A stretch of 37,026 nucleotides of DNA from Rhodospirillales bacterium (GCA_016191685.1 JACPVT010000144.1:1-37026), one strand, 5' to 3'; positions 22,874 to 35,841 are shown, numbered from the stretch's first letter. Translations and numbers: made by a program. Notes: generated by a model not told the origin, from the letters alone.

Positions 22874-23443
22874 ATGAAACTCAGCCGCCAGACGCTCACC
22901 TACATTGCCTGGGCCGCGGCACAGGTCGGCGTGCTGGCTGCGGTCGCCTGGTTCGCCGATCGGCAGATGAAGCTCGGATACACCGACTCCGCCGGCTGGC
23001 GGCCGTTCACCTGGCCGTTCTCCGCCGAGGACGCGCCGCCCGGCAAGGCCTACAGCGGCGACGAACACGACATCTATGTGTGGCTGAAGCTCGGCCACCT
23101 GAAGCCCGGCCAAAAGGGCGATTGCCCGGAAGGCATCGCGACCGACGAGGCGCTGGAGCGCGCGGTCGACGTCCGCCTCCTCGATCCGCGGTTCGTGCCG
23201 GTCGGCCCCGGCGAACGCGTCCGCGTCACCGACGTCTTCGGCCGCACGCGCGTCTACGTGCACAAGCGTCACAACGGGGCGCTGCGCTACGCCGAAGCGG
23301 TGGCGATCCCCTACAACTGCGATCTCGTCACCGCCATCATCGACGGCGACGCCCGCGATCCGGCCAAGCGCAAGCTGGCCCGCGAGTTCCTCGAATCCAA
23401 CACCGTGCAGGTGGGCGTGATCAAGGCACTCGAAGAGCGATAG
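22874..23443 (+). CDS. Membrane-anchored protein of unknown function
   Basis: The protein has 189 residues from the ATG at 22874; the longer track frame upstream is antisense to the YfdX gene. One N-terminal membrane helix (TLTYIAWAAAQVGVLAAVAWFA, ~9-29) is followed by a soluble domain of about 155 residues, probably periplasmic. It contains two cysteines (KGDCPEGI; YNCDLVT) that could pair, and a conserved-looking stretch RVRVTDVFGRTRVYVHKRHNGALRYAEAVAIPYNCD. I do not recognise a named family. It ends 2 bp from the convergent MFS gene. It has normal codon use for the region, so it is likely a real gene. Confidence 0.75.
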   Translation: MKLSRQTLTYIAWAAAQVGVLAAVAWFADRQMKLGYTDSAGWRPFTWPFSAEDAPPGKAYSGDEHDIYVWLKLGHLKPGQKGDCPEGIATDEALERAVDVRLLDPRFVPVGPGERVRVTDVFGRTRVYVHKRHNGALRYAEAVAIPYNCDLVTAIIDGDARDPAKRKLAREFLESNTVQVGVIKALEER

Positions 23444-24670: not shown

Positions 24671-25171
24671 TCAACCGCCGAGCCGGCTCGCCAGATCGGC
24701 CACCGCTTCATCGACGCTCTTCAGGGCGGTGTCGACGACGATGTGTTCGCGATCCCACTTCTCGTAGTCGCGATCCACGACGGCCTGCCATGTCGGCAGC
24801 TTCAGTCCGGCGATGTCGGCCGTCCGCGTCTCGACCCGGCGCCGATGTTCGGTCCCGTCGGAGCAGACCACTTCGACCTCGGCAACCTCGACGGCCGCGC
24901 TGTCGCCGACGGCGCGCCAGGCGTCGCGTGTAATTTTCAACGGATTGACCGAGTCGGCAATGACGATCCGGCCGATGCGCAGATTGTCCTCTGCAACATT
25001 GTAGGCGATCTCGTAGCCTGCGGGACCGACTTCGCCTCGGAGCACGTCGCTCCTGCGCAACGCCTGCTCGATCGTATCGACGCGCACATGCACGGCACCG
25101 AGCCGCCTCGCCAAGCTGCGCGCGATCGTGCTCTTGCCGCTGCCCGGCAAGCCGCCGAGCACGATCAGCAT
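24671..25171 (-). CDS. P-loop kinase-like ATPase (AAA_33 type)
   Basis: The protein has 166 residues. Walker A is GLPGSGKS at residues 7-14. The VRVDTIEQALR segment and the later IVIADSVNPLKITRDAW fit small-molecule kinases such as chloramphenicol phosphotransferase-like or zeta-like proteins, which phosphorylate a hydroxyl group. VVCSDGTEHRRRVETR resembles the lid with its arginines. The start overlaps the GST stop by 7 bp (ATGCTGA), so it is the last gene of the gluQ-Rieske operon. The substrate is unknown. A detached housekeeping or toxin-type role cannot be excluded, but no antitoxin is adjacent. Confidence 0.8.
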   Translation of the reverse strand: MLIVLGGLPGSGKSTIARSLARRLGAVHVRVDTIEQALRRSDVLRGEVGPAGYEIAYNVAEDNLRIGRIVIADSVNPLKITRDAWRAVGDSAAVEVAEVEVVCSDGTEHRRRVETRTADIAGLKLPTWQAVVDRDYEKWDREHIVVDTALKSVDEAVADLASRLGG

Positions 25172-25791
25172 GACGCCGCTCTCTTGCGATCCATCAATTC
25201 ATAGGGATGCTCCCATCCAGGCGTGGCGGCCAGGCGATCGAGCCAGCGACCGACCGATGGCCAGCGGCCAAGATCGATCCCCGCCTGGTCGGCGAAGAAG
25301 AGATAGCCCGCGCAGGAGATGTCCGCGACGCCGGGCGCGTCGCCCAGCAGATAGGGCCGGCGGTCGAACTCCTGAGCCAGACGGTCGAGGTCGGCCTCGG
25401 TCCGGCGCCGGAACATGGCGACGACGGCGGGATCCTCGGCGGAAAAGCGAAGGGCGAAGCGGAGATTGGGCAGCGAAAAGCCGATGCGATTGGCCTCCCA
25501 GAACAGCCACTGCGTCGTCCGGTCGAGATCGGCGCCGCCGCCCAGCCGGCCGCTCTTGCGGACGAGATGCAGCAGGATGGCGTTCGACTGCGCCAGCGTG
25601 CCGTCCTCGTCGATGAAGACGGGCACTTCGCCGTAGGGGCTCGCGGCGACGAAGTCAGGCCGGCGCTCGGCGCGCGGCGGCTGGAGATCGACATAACGAT
25701 ACTCGTGCGCCACGCCGAGCAGGACGAGGGTCTGGCGCACCTTGTAGGAGTGGCCGGACTCGCGATTGCCGTAGACGATGGGCAGGGCCAC
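25165..25791 (-). CDS. Glutathione S-transferase family protein (operon member)
   Basis: The protein has about 208 residues. The N-terminal thioredoxin-like domain (LPIVYGNRESGHSYKVRQTL) is followed by the glutathione-contact motif SPYGEVPVFIDEDGTLAQSNAIL, then an all-helical C-terminal domain with PYLLGDAPGVADISCAGYLF. S11 or Y13 in RESGHSY may be the catalytic residue. The track start at 25845 lies inside the MetE-like gene. I use the GTG at 25791, 2 bp after that gene's stop. The last 7 bp overlap the kinase start. The context suggests that glutathione is used on, or protects against, a product of the Rieske oxygenase pathway. Confidence 0.88.
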   Translation of the reverse strand: MALPIVYGNRESGHSYKVRQTLVLLGVAHEYRYVDLQPPRAERRPDFVAASPYGEVPVFIDEDGTLAQSNAILLHLVRKSGRLGGGADLDRTTQWLFWEANRIGFSLPNLRFALRFSAEDPAVVAMFRRRTEADLDRLAQEFDRRPYLLGDAPGVADISCAGYLFFADQAGIDLGRWPSVGRWLDRLAATPGWEHPYELMDRKRAASC

Positions 25792-25793
25792 GC

Positions 25794-26894
25794 TCAACCC
25801 CAGACTTCTTTGGCGACCTCGACACAGCGCGCGAGCTTGGCCCATTGTTCTTCTTCAGCCAGCAGGTTGCCCTCCTCCGTGCTGGCGAAGCCGCATTGCG
25901 GGCTGAGGCAGAGGCGGTCGAGGTCGGTGAACTTCGCGGCCTCCTCGAGGCGGCGCTTGAGCTGCTCCTTGCTCTCGAGCGCACCGGTCTTGGAGGTCAT
26001 GATGCCGAGCACGGCATGCTTGTTCTTCGGCAACATGCGCAGCGGCTCGAAGCCGCCGGCGCGCTCGCTGTCGTATTCCATGAAGTAGGCATCGACGCCC
26101 ATCTTGTTGAACAGCACATCGGCCACCGGCTCGTAGCCGCCCTGCGCCATCCAGGTCGAGCGGAAGTTGCCGCGGCAGAGATGCATCGAGATCGTCATGC
26201 CGGGCGTGCGGCCGGAGACGGCGGCATTCACCAGGTCGGCGTAGATGTGCAGCAGCCTGTCGGGATCGTCGCCGCGGCCGCGCAGATAATCGCGCTGCGC
26301 AGGATCGCAAAGGTAGGCCACGAACACCTCGTCAAGCTGCAGGTAGGTGCAGCCCGCCTCGCCGAAGGCGCGCACCGCCTTGGCGTAGGCTTTCCCGAGA
26401 TCCTCGAAGAAGGCCTCCATCTCCGGGTACACCGACTTCTCGATGGCCTGGCGGCCGCCGCGATAGTGCAGTGCCGTCGGCGACGGGATCGTCATCTTGG
26501 GCGTGGCCTTCGCCACCGACTTCAGGAACTCGAAGTGCCCGATCATCGGATGGCCGGTGAAGTCGATCTTGCCGTGCACGTGCAGGCCTTCGGCCTTGGT
26601 TTGCGTGCCCTTGAACTGCAGGCCCTGGGCCACGCTCACCAGCTCCACGCCGTCGAGGCCGGCCAGGAAATCGTAGTGCCACCACGAGCGGCGAAACTCG
26701 CCGTCGGTCACCCCCTGCAGGCCGATCGCCTCCTGTTTCGCGACAAGCTTCGTGATCTCGGCGTCCTCGACCGCCTTCAGCTGCGCCGGGGTGATCTCGC
26801 CGGCGAGGCGCTTGGTCCGCGCCGCCTTGACCGGCGCACTGCGCAACAGGCTGCCGACCTGGTCGGCGCGAAACGGCGGCTTGGTGCGTTTCAT
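25794..26894 (-). CDS. Cobalamin-independent methionine synthase-like protein (MetE C-terminal domain only)
   Basis: The protein has 366 residues, corresponding to the catalytic C-terminal half of MetE. The four zinc ligands are visible: H238 and C240 (SMHLCRGN), E273 (YFMEYDSE) and C334 (LSPQCGFAS). Opening FRADQVGSLLR and GVTDGEFRR are typical of the single-domain family (YxjG/YxjH-like). Such short MetE relatives move methyl groups between a donor and a thiol, but most lack a proven donor. The track starts at 26918; the ATG at 26894 has GGGAGAAGAGG just before it and clears the SDR stop by 13 bp. In a run with Rieske, SDR and GST genes, it may accept a methyl group released from a catabolic substrate (inference). 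Confidence 0.88.
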   Translation of the reverse strand: MKRTKPPFRADQVGSLLRSAPVKAARTKRLAGEITPAQLKAVEDAEITKLVAKQEAIGLQGVTDGEFRRSWWHYDFLAGLDGVELVSVAQGLQFKGTQTKAEGLHVHGKIDFTGHPMIGHFEFLKSVAKATPKMTIPSPTALHYRGGRQAIEKSVYPEMEAFFEDLGKAYAKAVRAFGEAGCTYLQLDEVFVAYLCDPAQRDYLRGRGDDPDRLLHIYADLVNAAVSGRTPGMTISMHLCRGNFRSTWMAQGGYEPVADVLFNKMGVDAYFMEYDSERAGGFEPLRMLPKNKHAVLGIMTSKTGALESKEQLKRRLEEAAKFTDLDRLCLSPQCGFASTEEGNLLAEEEQWAKLARCVEVAKEVWG

Positions 26895-26907
26895 CCTCTT
26901 CTCCCGG

Positions 26908-27693
26908 TCAAATGGCATAACCGCCGTCGACCATCAGCGTCTGGCCGGTGATCCAGCGGGCGCGCGCGGAGGCAAGGAATACCACGGCTTCGGCGACCTC
27001 GTCCGCCGTGCCCAAACGCTTGAGCGCCATGACCTGGCGCGAGGCGTCGAGGAAGCGCTGGTCGAAGTCGCCGCTCTCCACCAGCGCGTGATAGAGCCCG
27101 TCGGTGATGACGCCGACGCCGACGGCGTTGGCGCGCACGCCGAAGCGGCCCTCCTCGGCCGCAACGGCCTTCACGAGTTGCTCGATCGCGGCCTTGGGGG
27201 CGGCGCTCAGGATGTCGCGCACGGCGTTGCGGCGGATGGCCGGAGTCACGAGGGCGGTGAAACTGCCCTTGCTCGTGCGCAGGCGCGGCAATGCCGCCTG
27301 GATCAGATGGTAGCAACCGAAGGCGTCGTGCTCCATCACCTCGCGGAAGGCCGACGCCGGCTGCTGGCTGATGAACCGCATGGGGATGTAGGGCCCGGCG
27401 GCATAGACGACCGTGTGGACGCCGCCGAAATGGTCCGAAGCGTCGTCGACGAATTCCTTCACTACGGCCTCGTCGCGCAGGTCGACCTTGGCGACATGGA
27501 CCTCTCGGCCGGCGCCGCGCACCAGCTCGGCCGTCTCCTCGGCACGCCCCGGCCCGCTGAAATAGTTGAGCGCCACGTCGCAGCCGCGTTCGGCGAGTTG
27601 CACGGCGATGGCTCGGCCGATGCCGCCCGAACCGCCGATCACCACCGCGCAGCCACCCGTCGGAAAGTCGGGCAGCCGCTCGGGCTGCTTCAA
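26908..27693 (-). CDS. Divergent SDR-family protein lacking the catalytic tyrosine
   Basis: The protein has about 261 residues. The Rossmann motif GGSGGIG (20-26) and the C-terminal ITGQTLMVDGGYAI are SDR-typical. The YxxxK motif, however, reads S163-A-A-P-K167, the catalytic serine strand reads ALVTPAIRR, and NNAG reads YAAG. It may therefore bind NAD(P)H without classical chemistry, or use other residues. The 396-residue track ORF runs antisense inside the Rieske gene. I choose the TTG at 27693, which overlaps the Rieske stop as TTGA and gives a normal SDR N-terminus (KQPERLPDFPTGGCAVVIGG). This start is inferred from coupling. Third gene of the operon. Confidence 0.82.
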   Translation of the reverse strand: MKQPERLPDFPTGGCAVVIGGSGGIGRAIAVQLAERGCDVALNYFSGPGRAEETAELVRGAGREVHVAKVDLRDEAVVKEFVDDASDHFGGVHTVVYAAGPYIPMRFISQQPASAFREVMEHDAFGCYHLIQAALPRLRTSKGSFTALVTPAIRRNAVRDILSAAPKAAIEQLVKAVAAEEGRFGVRANAVGVGVITDGLYHALVESGDFDQRFLDASRQVMALKRLGTADEVAEAVVFLASARARWITGQTLMVDGGYAI

Positions 27694-28847
27694 GCCGCGA
27701 CCCCGAGGGCGTTGCGGATCGAGCTGTGGAAGTGGACCAGCGACGGCTCGTTGCGGCCGTAGAGCACTTCTTCGGTGGCGCCCGACTCGAAGCCGATCTG
27801 CATGCGCTCGCCCAGCGGGAAGTCCTCTTCCATCACGGTCCGGATCGCGATATCGCGGTTCTTCTCCCAGTAGGAATCCGGCTTGTCCGTTTCCGCGGGC
27901 CGGTAGATCGTCATCTCGACCTCGCAGCGGCCAGGATCGTCGCGGCCGGGGAAGGCCCGCCAGATCTCGATGTGATCGACCTGGAAGATCAGGATGGTGT
28001 TGGGGAAGAGCTGATAGATCGAGATGACGTGCGGGCGGTAGTTGCGCTCGGTTTCGGGCAGGCCGCGCACCGCGTCGATCGAGGTGCGGGCCACGCACAT
28101 GCGGCCGTTGAGGCCGGCGCCGTCGAAGGTGCCGACATTGCCGATGAAGTACGGCCCGATGGTTTTCCGGTGCAGGTGCGGGACGTGATAGACTTCCAGG
28201 AAGGTGTCGACGGCGAACTTCCAGTTGATGCGCGGCGCCACGCGATCGGTCGAGAACATGGGATAGGTGTCGAGTTGCAGCGCCGCCAGATCCGCGGCGA
28301 TCGGCCCGAGGCCGGCATCGATGTCGAGCTCCGGACCCTCACCGGGCTGCACGGGCTTGGGCCGCACGAACAGCATGCCGTGGCGTTCGGCGGCCGGAAG
28401 CCGCACCAGCCCGTGGCTCGCAAGATCGACGCCGGCGAAGCCCACCTTGTCCGTCGTGCCCAGGAGCTTGCCGGCGAGATCGTAGGTCCAGCCGTGATAG
28501 GGGCAGGTGAAGGCCCGCGCATTGCCGCAGCCATCGGCCACCGGCGCACCGCGATGGCGGCAGATGTTGGCGAAGGCCTTTACGCTGCCGTCGGCGCCGC
28601 GGGTCATCAGCACCGGCATACCGGCCACATCCTCGGTGACATAGTCGCCGGGTTTGGCGAGGCGCGCCGACAGTCCCATGAAGATCGGCAAGTCGCGGAA
28701 CAGCCGGTCGCGCTCCAGGTTCGCGCGCTCGCGGCTGGAATAGGCGATCACGCGGTTGCGGAACAGGGAGTCCGCGAGATCGGTGGTGCGGCCGTCGATA
28801 TGGCCGAGCAGCCGCCTCCCGACGGCCAGTTCTTCGTTTCGGTCCAT
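27690..28847 (-). CDS. Rieske non-heme iron oxygenase, alpha subunit
   Basis: The protein has 385 residues. The [2Fe-2S] Rieske motif is C96-R-H98 ... C115-P-Y-H118. The mononuclear iron site lies in NWKFAVDTFLEVYHVPHLH, with H220 and H225 and a later Asp in EEDFPLGE. The bridging acidic residue two before H220 is Glu217 rather than Asp, as reported for carnitine monooxygenase CntA, but Glu also occurs in other branches. Such enzymes hydroxylate or demethylate aromatic or quaternary-amine substrates and need a reductase, which is not encoded nearby. The start is 9 bp after the gluQ stop, and the stop overlaps the SDR start. No beta subunit is present. Substrate unknown. Confidence 0.92.
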   Translation of the reverse strand: MDRNEELAVGRRLLGHIDGRTTDLADSLFRNRVIAYSSRERANLERDRLFRDLPIFMGLSARLAKPGDYVTEDVAGMPVLMTRGADGSVKAFANICRHRGAPVADGCGNARAFTCPYHGWTYDLAGKLLGTTDKVGFAGVDLASHGLVRLPAAERHGMLFVRPKPVQPGEGPELDIDAGLGPIAADLAALQLDTYPMFSTDRVAPRINWKFAVDTFLEVYHVPHLHRKTIGPYFIGNVGTFDGAGLNGRMCVARTSIDAVRGLPETERNYRPHVISIYQLFPNTILIFQVDHIEIWRAFPGRDDPGRCEVEMTIYRPAETDKPDSYWEKNRDIAIRTVMEEDFPLGERMQIGFESGATEEVLYGRNEPSLVHFHSSIRNALGVAA

Positions 28848-28856
28848 GGCCGAATG

Positions 28857-29741
28857 TTAGGCCTGCCGGCCCACCGCCGCCAGTGCGCGGCGCCGCACTT
28901 CCTCCGGACCGACGCCGCTTTCGCGTAGCGACCGGATCGTGAGGTCCTTGTCGCGCTTGGCCAGACGCCGCCCGGTCGGGTCCGCGATCAGGCCGTGATG
29001 GGCATAGAGCGGCGTCGCGTAGCCCTGCAGGCGCTGCAACAGGACATGGGCGTGGGTCGAGGGCAGGATGTCCTCACCGCGAGTCACCAGGGAGACGCCC
29101 TGCAGGTGATCGTCGACCGTGACCGCGAGGTGATAGCTGATCGGCGTGTCCTTGCGGGCGATCACGAAGTCGCCCATCAGAAGCGGCTGGCCCGCGATGC
29201 GGCCGCGGTCCTCGTCGACGAAATCGTACGGCCCCACGGCAGCCGCGGCGCGCGCCGAATCGAGCCGCATGCAGAACTCGCGGCCGGCGGCGATGCGTCG
29301 TTTGCGTTCGGCCGGCGTGAGATCCCGGCAGGTGCCGGGATAGAGCGGGCCATCGGGGCCCACGGACGGCCCATGCGGCGCGGCGGCGGAGGCCGCTATC
29401 TCGCGCGCGATCTTGGCGCGGCTGCAGAAACAGGGATAGACCAGGCCGCGCCTGCTCAGCCGGTCGAGTTCGTGGCCGTAGTCGGAGAAATGATCGGACT
29501 GGCGGCGCACCTCACCGTCCCAATTCAGGCCAAGCCACTTGAGGTCCTGCAGGATGGCTGTCTCGTAGTCGCGCCGGCAGCGGCGGACGTCGGTGTCCTC
29601 GATACGCACCAGGAACCGGCCACCGGCCTCGCGCGCCCGGGTCCAGGCGACCAAGGCCGAATAGGCACTGCCGAGATGAAGCAAGCCAGTCGGACTGGGG
29701 GCAAAACGCGTAACGACTGGCAGCACGGCGGGCGACATCAT
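28857..29741 (-). CDS. gluQ: Glutamyl-Q tRNA(Asp) synthetase
   Basis: The protein has 294 residues, a truncated GluRS-like enzyme with no anticodon-binding domain. GluQRS attaches glutamate to the queuosine at position 34 of tRNA-Asp. The HIGH-like motif is HLGSAYSAL within TRFAPSPTGLLHLG. Zinc ligands are CFCSR and YPGTC, and the KMSKS-like loop is RRLAKRDKDL. Two adjacent ATGs are possible starts (29741 or 29738). It is the first gene of a six-gene run with the Rieske gene only 9 bp downstream, an unusual partner for a tRNA-modification enzyme. Divergent from the AlkA-like gene, with a 42-bp gap. Confidence 0.95.
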   Translation of the reverse strand: MMSPAVLPVVTRFAPSPTGLLHLGSAYSALVAWTRAREAGGRFLVRIEDTDVRRCRRDYETAILQDLKWLGLNWDGEVRRQSDHFSDYGHELDRLSRRGLVYPCFCSRAKIAREIAASAAAPHGPSVGPDGPLYPGTCRDLTPAERKRRIAAGREFCMRLDSARAAAAVGPYDFVDEDRGRIAGQPLLMGDFVIARKDTPISYHLAVTVDDHLQGVSLVTRGEDILPSTHAHVLLQRLQGYATPLYAHHGLIADPTGRRLAKRDKDLTIRSLRESGVGPEEVRRRALAAVGRQA

Positions 29742-33739: not shown

Positions 33740-35173
33740 ATGGCCAAGGCCTTCCCGACCGATAATCCCTTCCTGCACGGCTACTACGGTCCGGTGAACA
33801 CCGAGGCCGACGCCGGCCACCTCCACATCACCGGCGAGATGCCGCGCGAGCTCTGCGGCACGCTCTACCGCAACGGCCCCAATCCGCAGTTCGCGCCGCG
33901 CGGGCCCTACCACTGGTTCGGTGGCGACGGCATGATCCACGCCTTCCACATCGAGAACGGCAACGTCTCCTACAAGAACCGCTGGGTGCGCACGCCCAAG
34001 TGGGAGATCGAGAACAAGGAGGGCGAGGGCCTCTCCGGCACCTTCGGCAACCCGCGCTACACCGACCCGCGCGTCTTCGCGCTGAACTCGACCATCGCCA
34101 ACACCAACATCGTCTGGCACGGCGGCAAGCTGCTGGCGCTCGAGGAGGCGCATGCACCCTTCGCGCTCGATCCAGCGAGCCTGATGCCGGCCACGCCTGA
34201 GGGCTACGAGACCTTCGGCGACAAGCTCTGCGGCCCCTTCACGGCCCATCCCAAGTTCGATCCCAAGACCGGCGAGATGGTGTTCTTCGGCTATTCGGCC
34301 AAGGGACGCTTCACCAAGGAAGTCAGCATCCAGACGGCGACGGCCGAGGGCAAGATCACGCGCGCGGAAATCCTCGATGGCCCCTTCCCCTCGATGATCC
34401 ACGACTTCGCCGTGACCAGGAACTGGATCGTGGTGCCGATCTTCCCGCTCACCTCCTCGATGGAGCGCGCCATGGGCGGCCTGCCGCCCTTCGCCTGGGA
34501 GCCCGACAAGGGCACGCACATCGCCTTCATCCCGCGCGGCGGCACGGTGGCCGACACCAAGTGGGTGACGGCGCCCGCCTCCTACGTCTTCCATCCGATG
34601 AACCATTTCGAGACGGCGGACGGCCGCGTCGTGATCGACGTCATGAAATACGACGTGGCGCCGCTGTTCCCCCTGCCCGACGGCTCGCCCTCGAGCAAGG
34701 AACTGCCGATGGCGAAGCTCTACCGCTGGACCTTCGATCTCGCCGGAAAGGGCAACACCATGAAGGAAGAGCAGCTCGACGACCGTTCGGGCGAGTTCCC
34801 GCGCTTCGACGAGCGCTTCTGCATGAGCGACTACCGCCATGGCTGGATCGTCGCCGGCGACATCACCGATCCCAAGACGGGCGAGCCGCGCCAGGACGGG
34901 CTTGTCCATTACGACCTCAAGAGCGGCAAGAGCACGGCGTGGAGCGCCGGCCCCGACGACCGCTTCGGCGAGCCGATCTTCGTGCCGCGCTCGGAGGGTG
35001 CCGCCGAGGGCGATGGCTGGCTGCTGAGCGTATTGTTCCGGGGCGAGGAAAAGCGCAGCGACCTCGCGGTGTTCGAGGCGACCGACCTCGCCAAGGGGCC
35101 GATTGCGCTGGCGCACTTGAGCAGCCGCGTGCCGGCGGGCTTCCATGGCAACTGGCGGCCCGGTACGCTGTAG
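33740..35173 (+). CDS. Carotenoid oxygenase (lignostilbene dioxygenase-like)
   Basis: The protein has 477 residues. The four histidines that bind the single Fe(II) are visible: H170 (FTAHPKFD), H221 (MIHDFAVT), H285 (YVFHPMNH) and H469 (GFHGNWRP). LYRNGPNPQF and YHWFGGDGMIHAF are family hallmarks in the beta-propeller. The family cleaves C=C bonds of carotenoids, apocarotenoids or stilbenoids with O2. No carotenoid synthesis genes are nearby, and non-pigmented soil alphaproteobacteria often use such enzymes on lignin-derived stilbenes, so a lignostilbene-type substrate is plausible (inference). A strong ribosome site (AAGAGGAGG) precedes it. The GST gene begins 2 bp after the stop. Confidence 0.93.
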   Translation: MAKAFPTDNPFLHGYYGPVNTEADAGHLHITGEMPRELCGTLYRNGPNPQFAPRGPYHWFGGDGMIHAFHIENGNVSYKNRWVRTPKWEIENKEGEGLSGTFGNPRYTDPRVFALNSTIANTNIVWHGGKLLALEEAHAPFALDPASLMPATPEGYETFGDKLCGPFTAHPKFDPKTGEMVFFGYSAKGRFTKEVSIQTATAEGKITRAEILDGPFPSMIHDFAVTRNWIVVPIFPLTSSMERAMGGLPPFAWEPDKGTHIAFIPRGGTVADTKWVTAPASYVFHPMNHFETADGRVVIDVMKYDVAPLFPLPDGSPSSKELPMAKLYRWTFDLAGKGNTMKEEQLDDRSGEFPRFDERFCMSDYRHGWIVAGDITDPKTGEPRQDGLVHYDLKSGKSTAWSAGPDDRFGEPIFVPRSEGAAEGDGWLLSVLFRGEEKRSDLAVFEATDLAKGPIALAHLSSRVPAGFHGNWRPGTL

Positions 35174-35175
35174 CC

Positions 35176-35841
35176 ATGATCACTGTCCATCACCTGAACA
35201 ACTCGCGCTCGCAGCGCATCCTGTGGATGCTGGAAGAACTCGGTCTCGATTACGAGGTCAGGCGCTACGAGCGCGAGCCCTCGATGCAGGCGCCGGCCTC
35301 GTTGCGGGCCGTGCATCCATTGGGCAAGTCGCCGGTGATCACCGACGGCGACAAGACGCTGGCGGAGTCCGGCGCCATCCTGGAGTACCTGGCCGAAACC
35401 TATGGCGGCGGGCAGTTCGCGCCGGCCGCCGGTACGCCCGAGCGGCTGCACTACACCTATTTCATGCACTACGCCGAAGGCTCCTTGATGCCGCTTCTGC
35501 TCATGAAACTGGTGTTCGGCAAGCTGCCGACACGCGTGCCCTTCTTGATGCGCCCCGTCGCCCGCGCCATCGCCAAGGGCGCCGACAAGACACTGCTCGG
35601 CCCGCAGATCACCAATCACTTCGCCTTCCTCGAAGGCGAACTCGCAAAGCGCGAGTGGTTCGCGGGCAAGGAATTCTCGGCCGCCGACATCCAGATGAGC
35701 TTTCCCCTAGAAGCCGCCGCGGCACGCTCGCCGCTGTTCGCCCGGTTGCCCAGGCTCAAGGCCTTCGTCGACCGGGTCCACGCCCGGCCGGCCTACAAGC
35801 GCGCGCTCGAAAAAGGCGGCCCCTACGAACTCCTGAAGTAG
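35176..35841 (+). CDS. Glutathione S-transferase
   Basis: The protein has 221 residues. The N-terminal thioredoxin-like domain opens ITVHHLNNSRSQRILWMLEEL, with a catalytic serine likely in NNSRSQ. The glutathione motif is LGKSPVITDGDKTLAESGAILEYL, and the C-terminal helical domain ends ARPAYKRALEKGGPY. This group (bacterial GSTs with NSRSQRILW) includes enzymes that act in aromatic catabolism and detoxification. Start 2 bp after the carotenoid oxygenase stop, so co-transcribed. The 426-residue track ORF is this gene plus a shadow extension into the oxygenase. Confidence 0.92.
   Translation: MITVHHLNNSRSQRILWMLEELGLDYEVRRYEREPSMQAPASLRAVHPLGKSPVITDGDKTLAESGAILEYLAETYGGGQFAPAAGTPERLHYTYFMHYAEGSLMPLLLMKLVFGKLPTRVPFLMRPVARAIAKGADKTLLGPQITNHFAFLEGELAKREWFAGKEFSAADIQMSFPLEAAAARSPLFARLPRLKAFVDRVHARPAYKRALEKGGPYELLK

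Follow-up and report, generated by a model that had tools for sequence, protein, structure and literature searches.

Do six genes that overlap or nearly touch one another encode a single system, or is the working unit smaller? The question is raised by a stretch of 37,026 nucleotides from a Rhodospirillales bacterium (GCA_016191685.1, JACPVT010000144.1:1-37026; hereafter the window), which is part of a draft Reyranella assembly of 390 contigs that is 75% complete. Positions 24,671 to 29,741, read on the minus strand, hold gluQ and genes for a Rieske non-heme iron oxygenase, a protein with the short-chain dehydrogenase/reductase (SDR) fold, a single-domain MetE-like protein, a glutathione S-transferase (GST)-fold protein and a P-loop kinase-like protein. 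An initial annotation had read these genes as one system, in which oxidative attack on a methylated substrate is combined with methyl transfer and glutathione chemistry. We found that the conserved part of the locus is gluQ-Rieske-MetE-like. We tentatively propose, as a possibility somewhat short of probable, that the Rieske oxygenase and the MetE-like protein together form the functional unit, a demethylation module that would join oxidative chemistry to thiol methyl transfer on a methylated substrate, probably a methoxyaromatic one. Kept side by side in Reyranella, and with relatives of the MetE-like protein found in other bacteria amid genes that degrade lignin-type aromatics, the pair suggests a methyl-removal module new to description.

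Conservation of the locus across Reyranella

All six open reading frames (ORFs) are intact, open and co-directional, and an independent codon-model gene call returned the identical six genes, with the gaps of 9, -4, 13, 2 and -7 bp given by the initial annotation. Its family labels were likewise borne out by profile searches. Purifying selection acts on every gene (dN/dS of about 0.06-0.24 relative to the closest Reyranella orthologues), and thus none of the six is a chance ORF. The spacing is what would be expected of one transcript; a scan for sigma-70-like promoters, which is weak evidence, gave no match across the region.

The sample of loci comprised 60 Reyranella regions and 33 named records, which partly overlap. 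The usual order is gluQ followed after 9-10 bp by the gene for the Rieske oxygenase (27690..28847, minus strand; alpha-only type, PF00355 and PF00848), with this gap widened to 0.8-2 kb in genomes G016, G058, G050, G024 and G104. The gene for the MetE-like protein, a member of PRK06520 (25794..26894, minus strand; NF005085, 547.3 bits versus a cut-off of 313; 366 aa, or 374 aa from an alternative in-frame ATG at 26918), is the neighbour of the Rieske gene in most loci and sits 3' of it or of the SDR gene in the loci read. Rieske orthologues (72-90% identity) occur in 52 of 61 genomes and MetE-like orthologues (at least 83%, partial copies counted) in 47 of 65. The remaining genes are found in a minority of relatives: the SDR in 16 of 60 loci (broken in G049), and the GST and the kinase in 7/60 and 3/60 other loci, respectively. 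Among the Reyranella loci read, all six genes recur only in G030, where approximately 0.5 kb separates the SDR gene from metE; in G048 the kinase gene lies directly behind metE, and neither SDR nor GST is present.

On a tree built from gluQ, the Rieske protein and two flanking genes, the distribution requires two changes for metE, five for the SDR, two for the GST and four for the kinase, fitting a metE that is ancestral in the genus and has since disappeared from one clade and from G018. Given this gene-by-gene distribution, the six-gene set has grown locally out of a gluQ-Rieske-metE core. The SDR, GST and kinase genes, which come and go separately, are recent accessories, and a reading of the six (or five) genes as one system is not supported. 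Confinement to a single genome, which the initial annotation had named as grounds for refutation, is nearly true of the full set and does not apply to the core. Glutathione chemistry is not essential to the core either, because the GST is found in so few relatives.

The MetE-like protein and its neighbours in other Alphaproteobacteria

The MetE-like protein consists of a single catalytic domain (PF01717, 56.7 bits versus a cut-off of 21), without the folate-binding N-terminal half, and does not reach the profile of canonical MetE (TIGR01371, 32.7 versus 929.95 bits). It matches the Listeria structure 1ypx with E=3e-120 and is about 52% identical to Listeria relatives. In the 374-aa numbering, its zinc ligands are H246, C248, E281 and C342, and the homocysteine residues S23, E74 and D196 correspond to E. 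coli S433, E484 and D599. The zinc site aligns with H641, C643 and C726 of E. coli MetE; E281 is invariant, its pairing with E. coli E665 having been set by eye where the alignment shifts. Across the family alignment, 73 of 73 rows keep the zinc and homocysteine residues unchanged, and a homocysteine-like thiol is therefore the likely acceptor. MetH is encoded in 64 of 65 Reyranella genomes, that of the window included, which led us to reject the MetE-like protein as the main, housekeeping methionine synthase.

For MetE orthologues sampled across other Alphaproteobacteria, we examined the neighbouring genes. The window protein falls inside a supported clade (SH-aLRT 98, 52 rows), many copies of which close the operon of an ATP-binding cassette (ABC) transporter composed of a substrate-binding protein (SBP) and LivHMGF. 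VanA-GntR-VanB is present as well at ten in-clade loci, where its arrangement takes at least three forms. In L232:5952-18940, VanA-GntR-VanB lies by SBP-LivHMGF with metE at or near the end, and VanA matches PF19112; the same association is present in L230, L231, L146, L243, L244, L248, L140, L225 and L227, with LigAB and LigK in some. Other in-clade loci hold LigAB, the protocatechuate 4,5-dioxygenase, together with LigK, LigI-like, LigU-like and PIG-L genes, and in L229:7221-11375 the order pcaH-pcaG-metE-pcaB-pcaC places the MetE-like gene within a protocatechuate 3,4-cleavage operon. Profiles support VanA_C, LigA, LigB, LigK, PcaH, PcaG and PcaC; LigA and PcaB score under their NCBIfam cut-offs, and LigA is over its Pfam cut-off.

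Counted by blastp, aromatic genes occur at 17 of 39 loci in the clade, from seven families, versus 0 of 21 outside it (Fisher p 0.0002), with VanA at 10/39 versus 0/21. The out-of-clade paralogues of family f129, three of which form pairs from the same hosts, stand without aromatic markers. VanA and LigB markers were first found in L140/L141 and appeared again in later samples from other families (L243, L244, L247 and L248). Together with the recurrence of the Rieske-MetE-like pair across the genus, this tie of the MetE clade to vanillate-demethylase-type Rieske and protocatechuate genes supports the part of the initial annotation that paired oxidative attack on a methylated substrate with methyl transfer.

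Reyranella combines a MetE of this clade with a Rieske oxygenase of its own, likewise alpha-only. The Rieske protein of VanAB, the vanillate O-demethylase, belongs to PF19112, whereas that of Reyranella is a PF00848 protein with a bridging Glu and has no VanB beside it. Searches of the 65 Reyranella genomes with strict thresholds and without a positive control returned no orthologues of the clade VanA (E 1e-90) or LigB (1e-60). A protocatechuate 3,4-dioxygenase match (pcaHG) is present in 62 of the 65, so that protocatechuate has a place to go in Reyranella; in the window genome it is a contig-edge piece under the cut-off.

In the mechanism that we infer, which extends to reaction, substrate, electron donor and co-transcription, the Rieske oxygenase would remove a methyl group oxidatively from an imported methylated compound, or hydroxylate it. 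The MetE-like protein would use its zinc to activate a homocysteine-type thiol and would take a methyl group from the same or a partner compound, yielding methionine without folate or cobalamin. Judging from the genes around metE orthologues, the likeliest substrate would be a methoxylated aromatic acid whose product may enter protocatechuate breakdown. In Reyranella the unit follows gluQ at a constant position in the genome, and genes are gained and lost on its 3' side. A more specific version, in which the MetE clade comprises aryl-methyl-ether:homocysteine methyltransferases that work beside Rieske demethylases (VanAB in several other hosts, a distinct Rieske protein in Reyranella) and pass methyl groups from methoxylated aromatic acids directly to zinc-bound homocysteine, with no need of folate, cobalamin or oxygen and no release of formaldehyde, is a conjecture that we judge unlikely.

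Only a minority of single-domain MetE-like proteins have a known methyl donor, and routine annotation makes them methionine synthases; the presence of one MetE clade in the vanillate and protocatechuate operons of hosts from several families offers a concrete candidate donor class that can be assayed directly. If the proposal is correct, lignin-derived methoxy groups could be converted directly to methionine in a formaldehyde-free demethylation, which would matter both to lignin conversion and to one-carbon metabolism. If it is wrong, the annotation problem remains, and the Reyranella locus is a two-gene core growing into an apparent six-gene operon.

LigM and DesA, tetrahydrofolate-dependent aryl O-demethylases that pass the aryl methyl group to their acceptor, would do the same job, but with an unrelated fold and with folate as acceptor instead of the zinc-bound thiol proposed here. 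YxjG and YxjH of Bacillus subtilis are of the same single-domain MetE-like type, and we know of no aromatic context for them or for the Listeria 1ypx protein. The core methionine synthases (MesA-D and the Dehalococcoides core-MetE) share the single catalytic MetE domain, the zinc site and the homocysteine residues; they differ in that the window protein belongs to PRK06520 and in that a Rieske gene or an aromatic operon takes the place of DUF1852 or of a corrinoid protein as neighbour. MesD, a folate-independent core methionine synthase, depends on oxygen and on its partner MesX, a DUF1852 protein (PMC7857596). By analogy, the closest conceptual precedents are the core methionine synthases that work without folate (PMC7857596) and the link between betaine demethylation and methionine synthesis in marine bacteria (PMC12478193). 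Within incomplete journal coverage we found no literature linking PRK06520 proteins to aromatic demethylation; Bradyrhizobium papers merely list both terms.

The Rieske oxygenase and the competing explanations

Both metal sites of the Rieske protein are complete (cluster ligands C96, H98, C115 and H118; iron ligands H221, H226 and D342; bridging E218), and the ligands are kept over 36 relatives. The motif F-L-E-x2-H-x4-H aligns with E. coli YeaW, and its F, L, E and both His residues are invariant in 53 orthologues; the bridging residue is therefore Glu throughout, as in YeaW, while HcaE and VanA have Asp. A Phe occupies the place of the substrate-binding Tyr203 of CntA. An AlphaFold model (pLDDT 94) has CntA as its top match by TM-score (0.77/0.82, root-mean-square deviation about 3 Å), with E-values for terephthalate and salicylate oxygenases similar to that of CntA. 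None of the curated family cut-offs is reached, the best being GbcA with 84.9 bits versus 670.

The initial annotation had remarked on the lack of a reductase and of a beta subunit. CntA works as a trimer of alpha subunits alone, and the absence of a beta subunit is therefore no anomaly; a reductase must be supplied from elsewhere. The assembly, itself 75% complete, contains only one VanB-like match (31%), a distant candidate located by a ferritin-like diiron gene, which we rejected as the dedicated reductase and do not regard as the Rieske partner. More distant Rieske proteins that are not orthologues (42-48%; L063-L071 and L104) have no metE and no close SDR relatives; the two examined in detail with complete flanks, L104 and L069, adjoin, by eye, enoyl-CoA hydratase- and acyl-CoA dehydrogenase-like genes, and these relatives were set aside as a guide to the pathway, offering no direct clue.

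Several observations weigh against a methoxyaromatic demethylation module. No transporter, reductase or ring-cleavage gene is present at the Reyranella locus itself, and the window Rieske protein matches PF00848 and PF00355 only, not the VanA C-terminal domain PF19112. The bridging Glu, the Phe and the CntA-like fold would suit quaternary amines equally well. About half of the in-clade MetE loci are without an aromatic marker; the contrast between loci inside and outside the clade is partly ascertained, because some markers came from in-clade loci, and its rows are non-independent, including several close relatives and regions cut by contig ends. At the VanA-linked loci, the proposal would assign two demethylases to one job. 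Within Reyranella, G060 has the SDR and metE without the Rieske gene, and a 12-genome clade and G018 keep the Rieske gene without metE; as each is kept alone in some genomes, neither strictly needs the other.

The alternative that survives best is a quaternary-amine module, in which the Rieske protein would be a betaine/carnitine-type N-demethylase or a C-N cleaving monooxygenase, with a methyl group of the amine, or of a derived sulfonium, being moved to homocysteine by the MetE-like protein. The combination of a bridging Glu with an aromatic residue two positions earlier, present in the window protein, is a feature of CntA/YeaW (PMC7948474), and both the fold match to CntA and the rank of GbcA among curated families, low as its score is, point the same way; marine bacteria also couple betaine demethylation with methionine synthesis, by other enzymes (PMC12478193). 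Against this, identity to CntA is about 21%, and the Cys-X-X-Cys pair that several group V enzymes have by the iron site (PMC10952381) is absent from the window protein, which has Val at both positions. Neither an amine transporter nor a CntB-like reductase (as in YeaW/YeaX) is adjacent, and in other hosts it is aromatic genes that accompany the MetE clade. We consider this explanation rather unlikely.

It is also doubtful that synteny alone accounts for the pair, the Rieske and MetE-like proteins belonging to unrelated pathways and being adjacent through regional stability. Other neighbours (gluQ and glycosylase, esterase and beta-lactamase-like genes) are conserved in the region too, and the clade that keeps the Rieske gene without metE, like the persistence of each gene alone in some genomes, is as this explanation would have it. 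Yet metE stays first behind the Rieske or SDR gene while the 3' side turns over, and in other bacteria this metE clade is paired with Rieske genes of another family.

Chance placement of a spare methionine synthase that draws on methyl-folate or a corrinoid would be in keeping with the intact zinc and homocysteine residues and with another core-MetE that accepts methylcobalamin in vitro (PMC7005905); we find it improbable given the missing folate-binding half, the MetH already there and the tie of the clade to aromatic catabolism. Most improbable of all is a dedicated six-gene pathway with a step each for SDR, GST and kinase, rejected as a conserved unit on its distribution: despite the close packing and purifying selection in its favour, the full set is confined to the window and, in looser form, G030, each accessory is found without the others and the SDR lacks its catalytic Tyr.

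The remaining genes and side observations

First in the run is gluQ (28857..29741, minus strand), which encodes the tRNA glutamyl-Q(34) synthetase GluQRS (NF004315, 345.6 bits versus a cut-off of 250) and is probably a bystander, a neighbour by location. The SDR-fold protein (26908..27693, minus strand; TTG start; PF13561/PF00106) retains its Rossmann motif GGSGGIG and does not have the classical Tyr-x3-Lys pair. As the initial annotation recognized, it is tyrosine-less: Ser occupies K-4 (S-A-A-P-K) in the window protein and in all 16 orthologues, which makes the loss a group-wide fixed feature rather than local decay. The GST-fold protein (25165..25791, minus strand; GTG start; PF02798/PF13410, GST_N/GST_C) scores under every NCBIfam cut-off, and the last gene encodes an AAA_33 P-loop kinase-like protein (24671..25171, minus strand; PF13671, 57 bits).

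The 3' side of the locus is a turnover spot at which the SDR, GST, kinase, MFS, YfdX, c10 and c13 genes vary. In the clade that lost metE, a probable membrane protein of 124-148 aa is encoded 3' of the Rieske gene (L057:9280-9687; relatives in L050, L052, L053, L056 and L061). The window itself encodes, at 22874-23443 on the plus strand, a 189-aa protein without a Pfam match, relatives of which lie just past the variable genes in most Reyranella copies of the locus.

PRK06520 genes on Klebsiella plasmids and in Moraxella, considered as comparisons, were set aside: they have no aromatic genes nearby, but are just 46-53% identical. One of them, on a Klebsiella IncFIB plasmid (L221:9001-10104), lies immediately ahead of urtABCDE urea-transporter genes. 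In L224 (3-1416 and 7885-10819), HpaH/HpaI-like genes were recognized by eye, and a GST gene two genes upstream of the MetE-clade gene is a second case of a GST near metE. At 33740-35841 on the plus strand, the window also holds a second GST gene, 2 bp behind a gene of the RPE65/carotenoid-oxygenase family.

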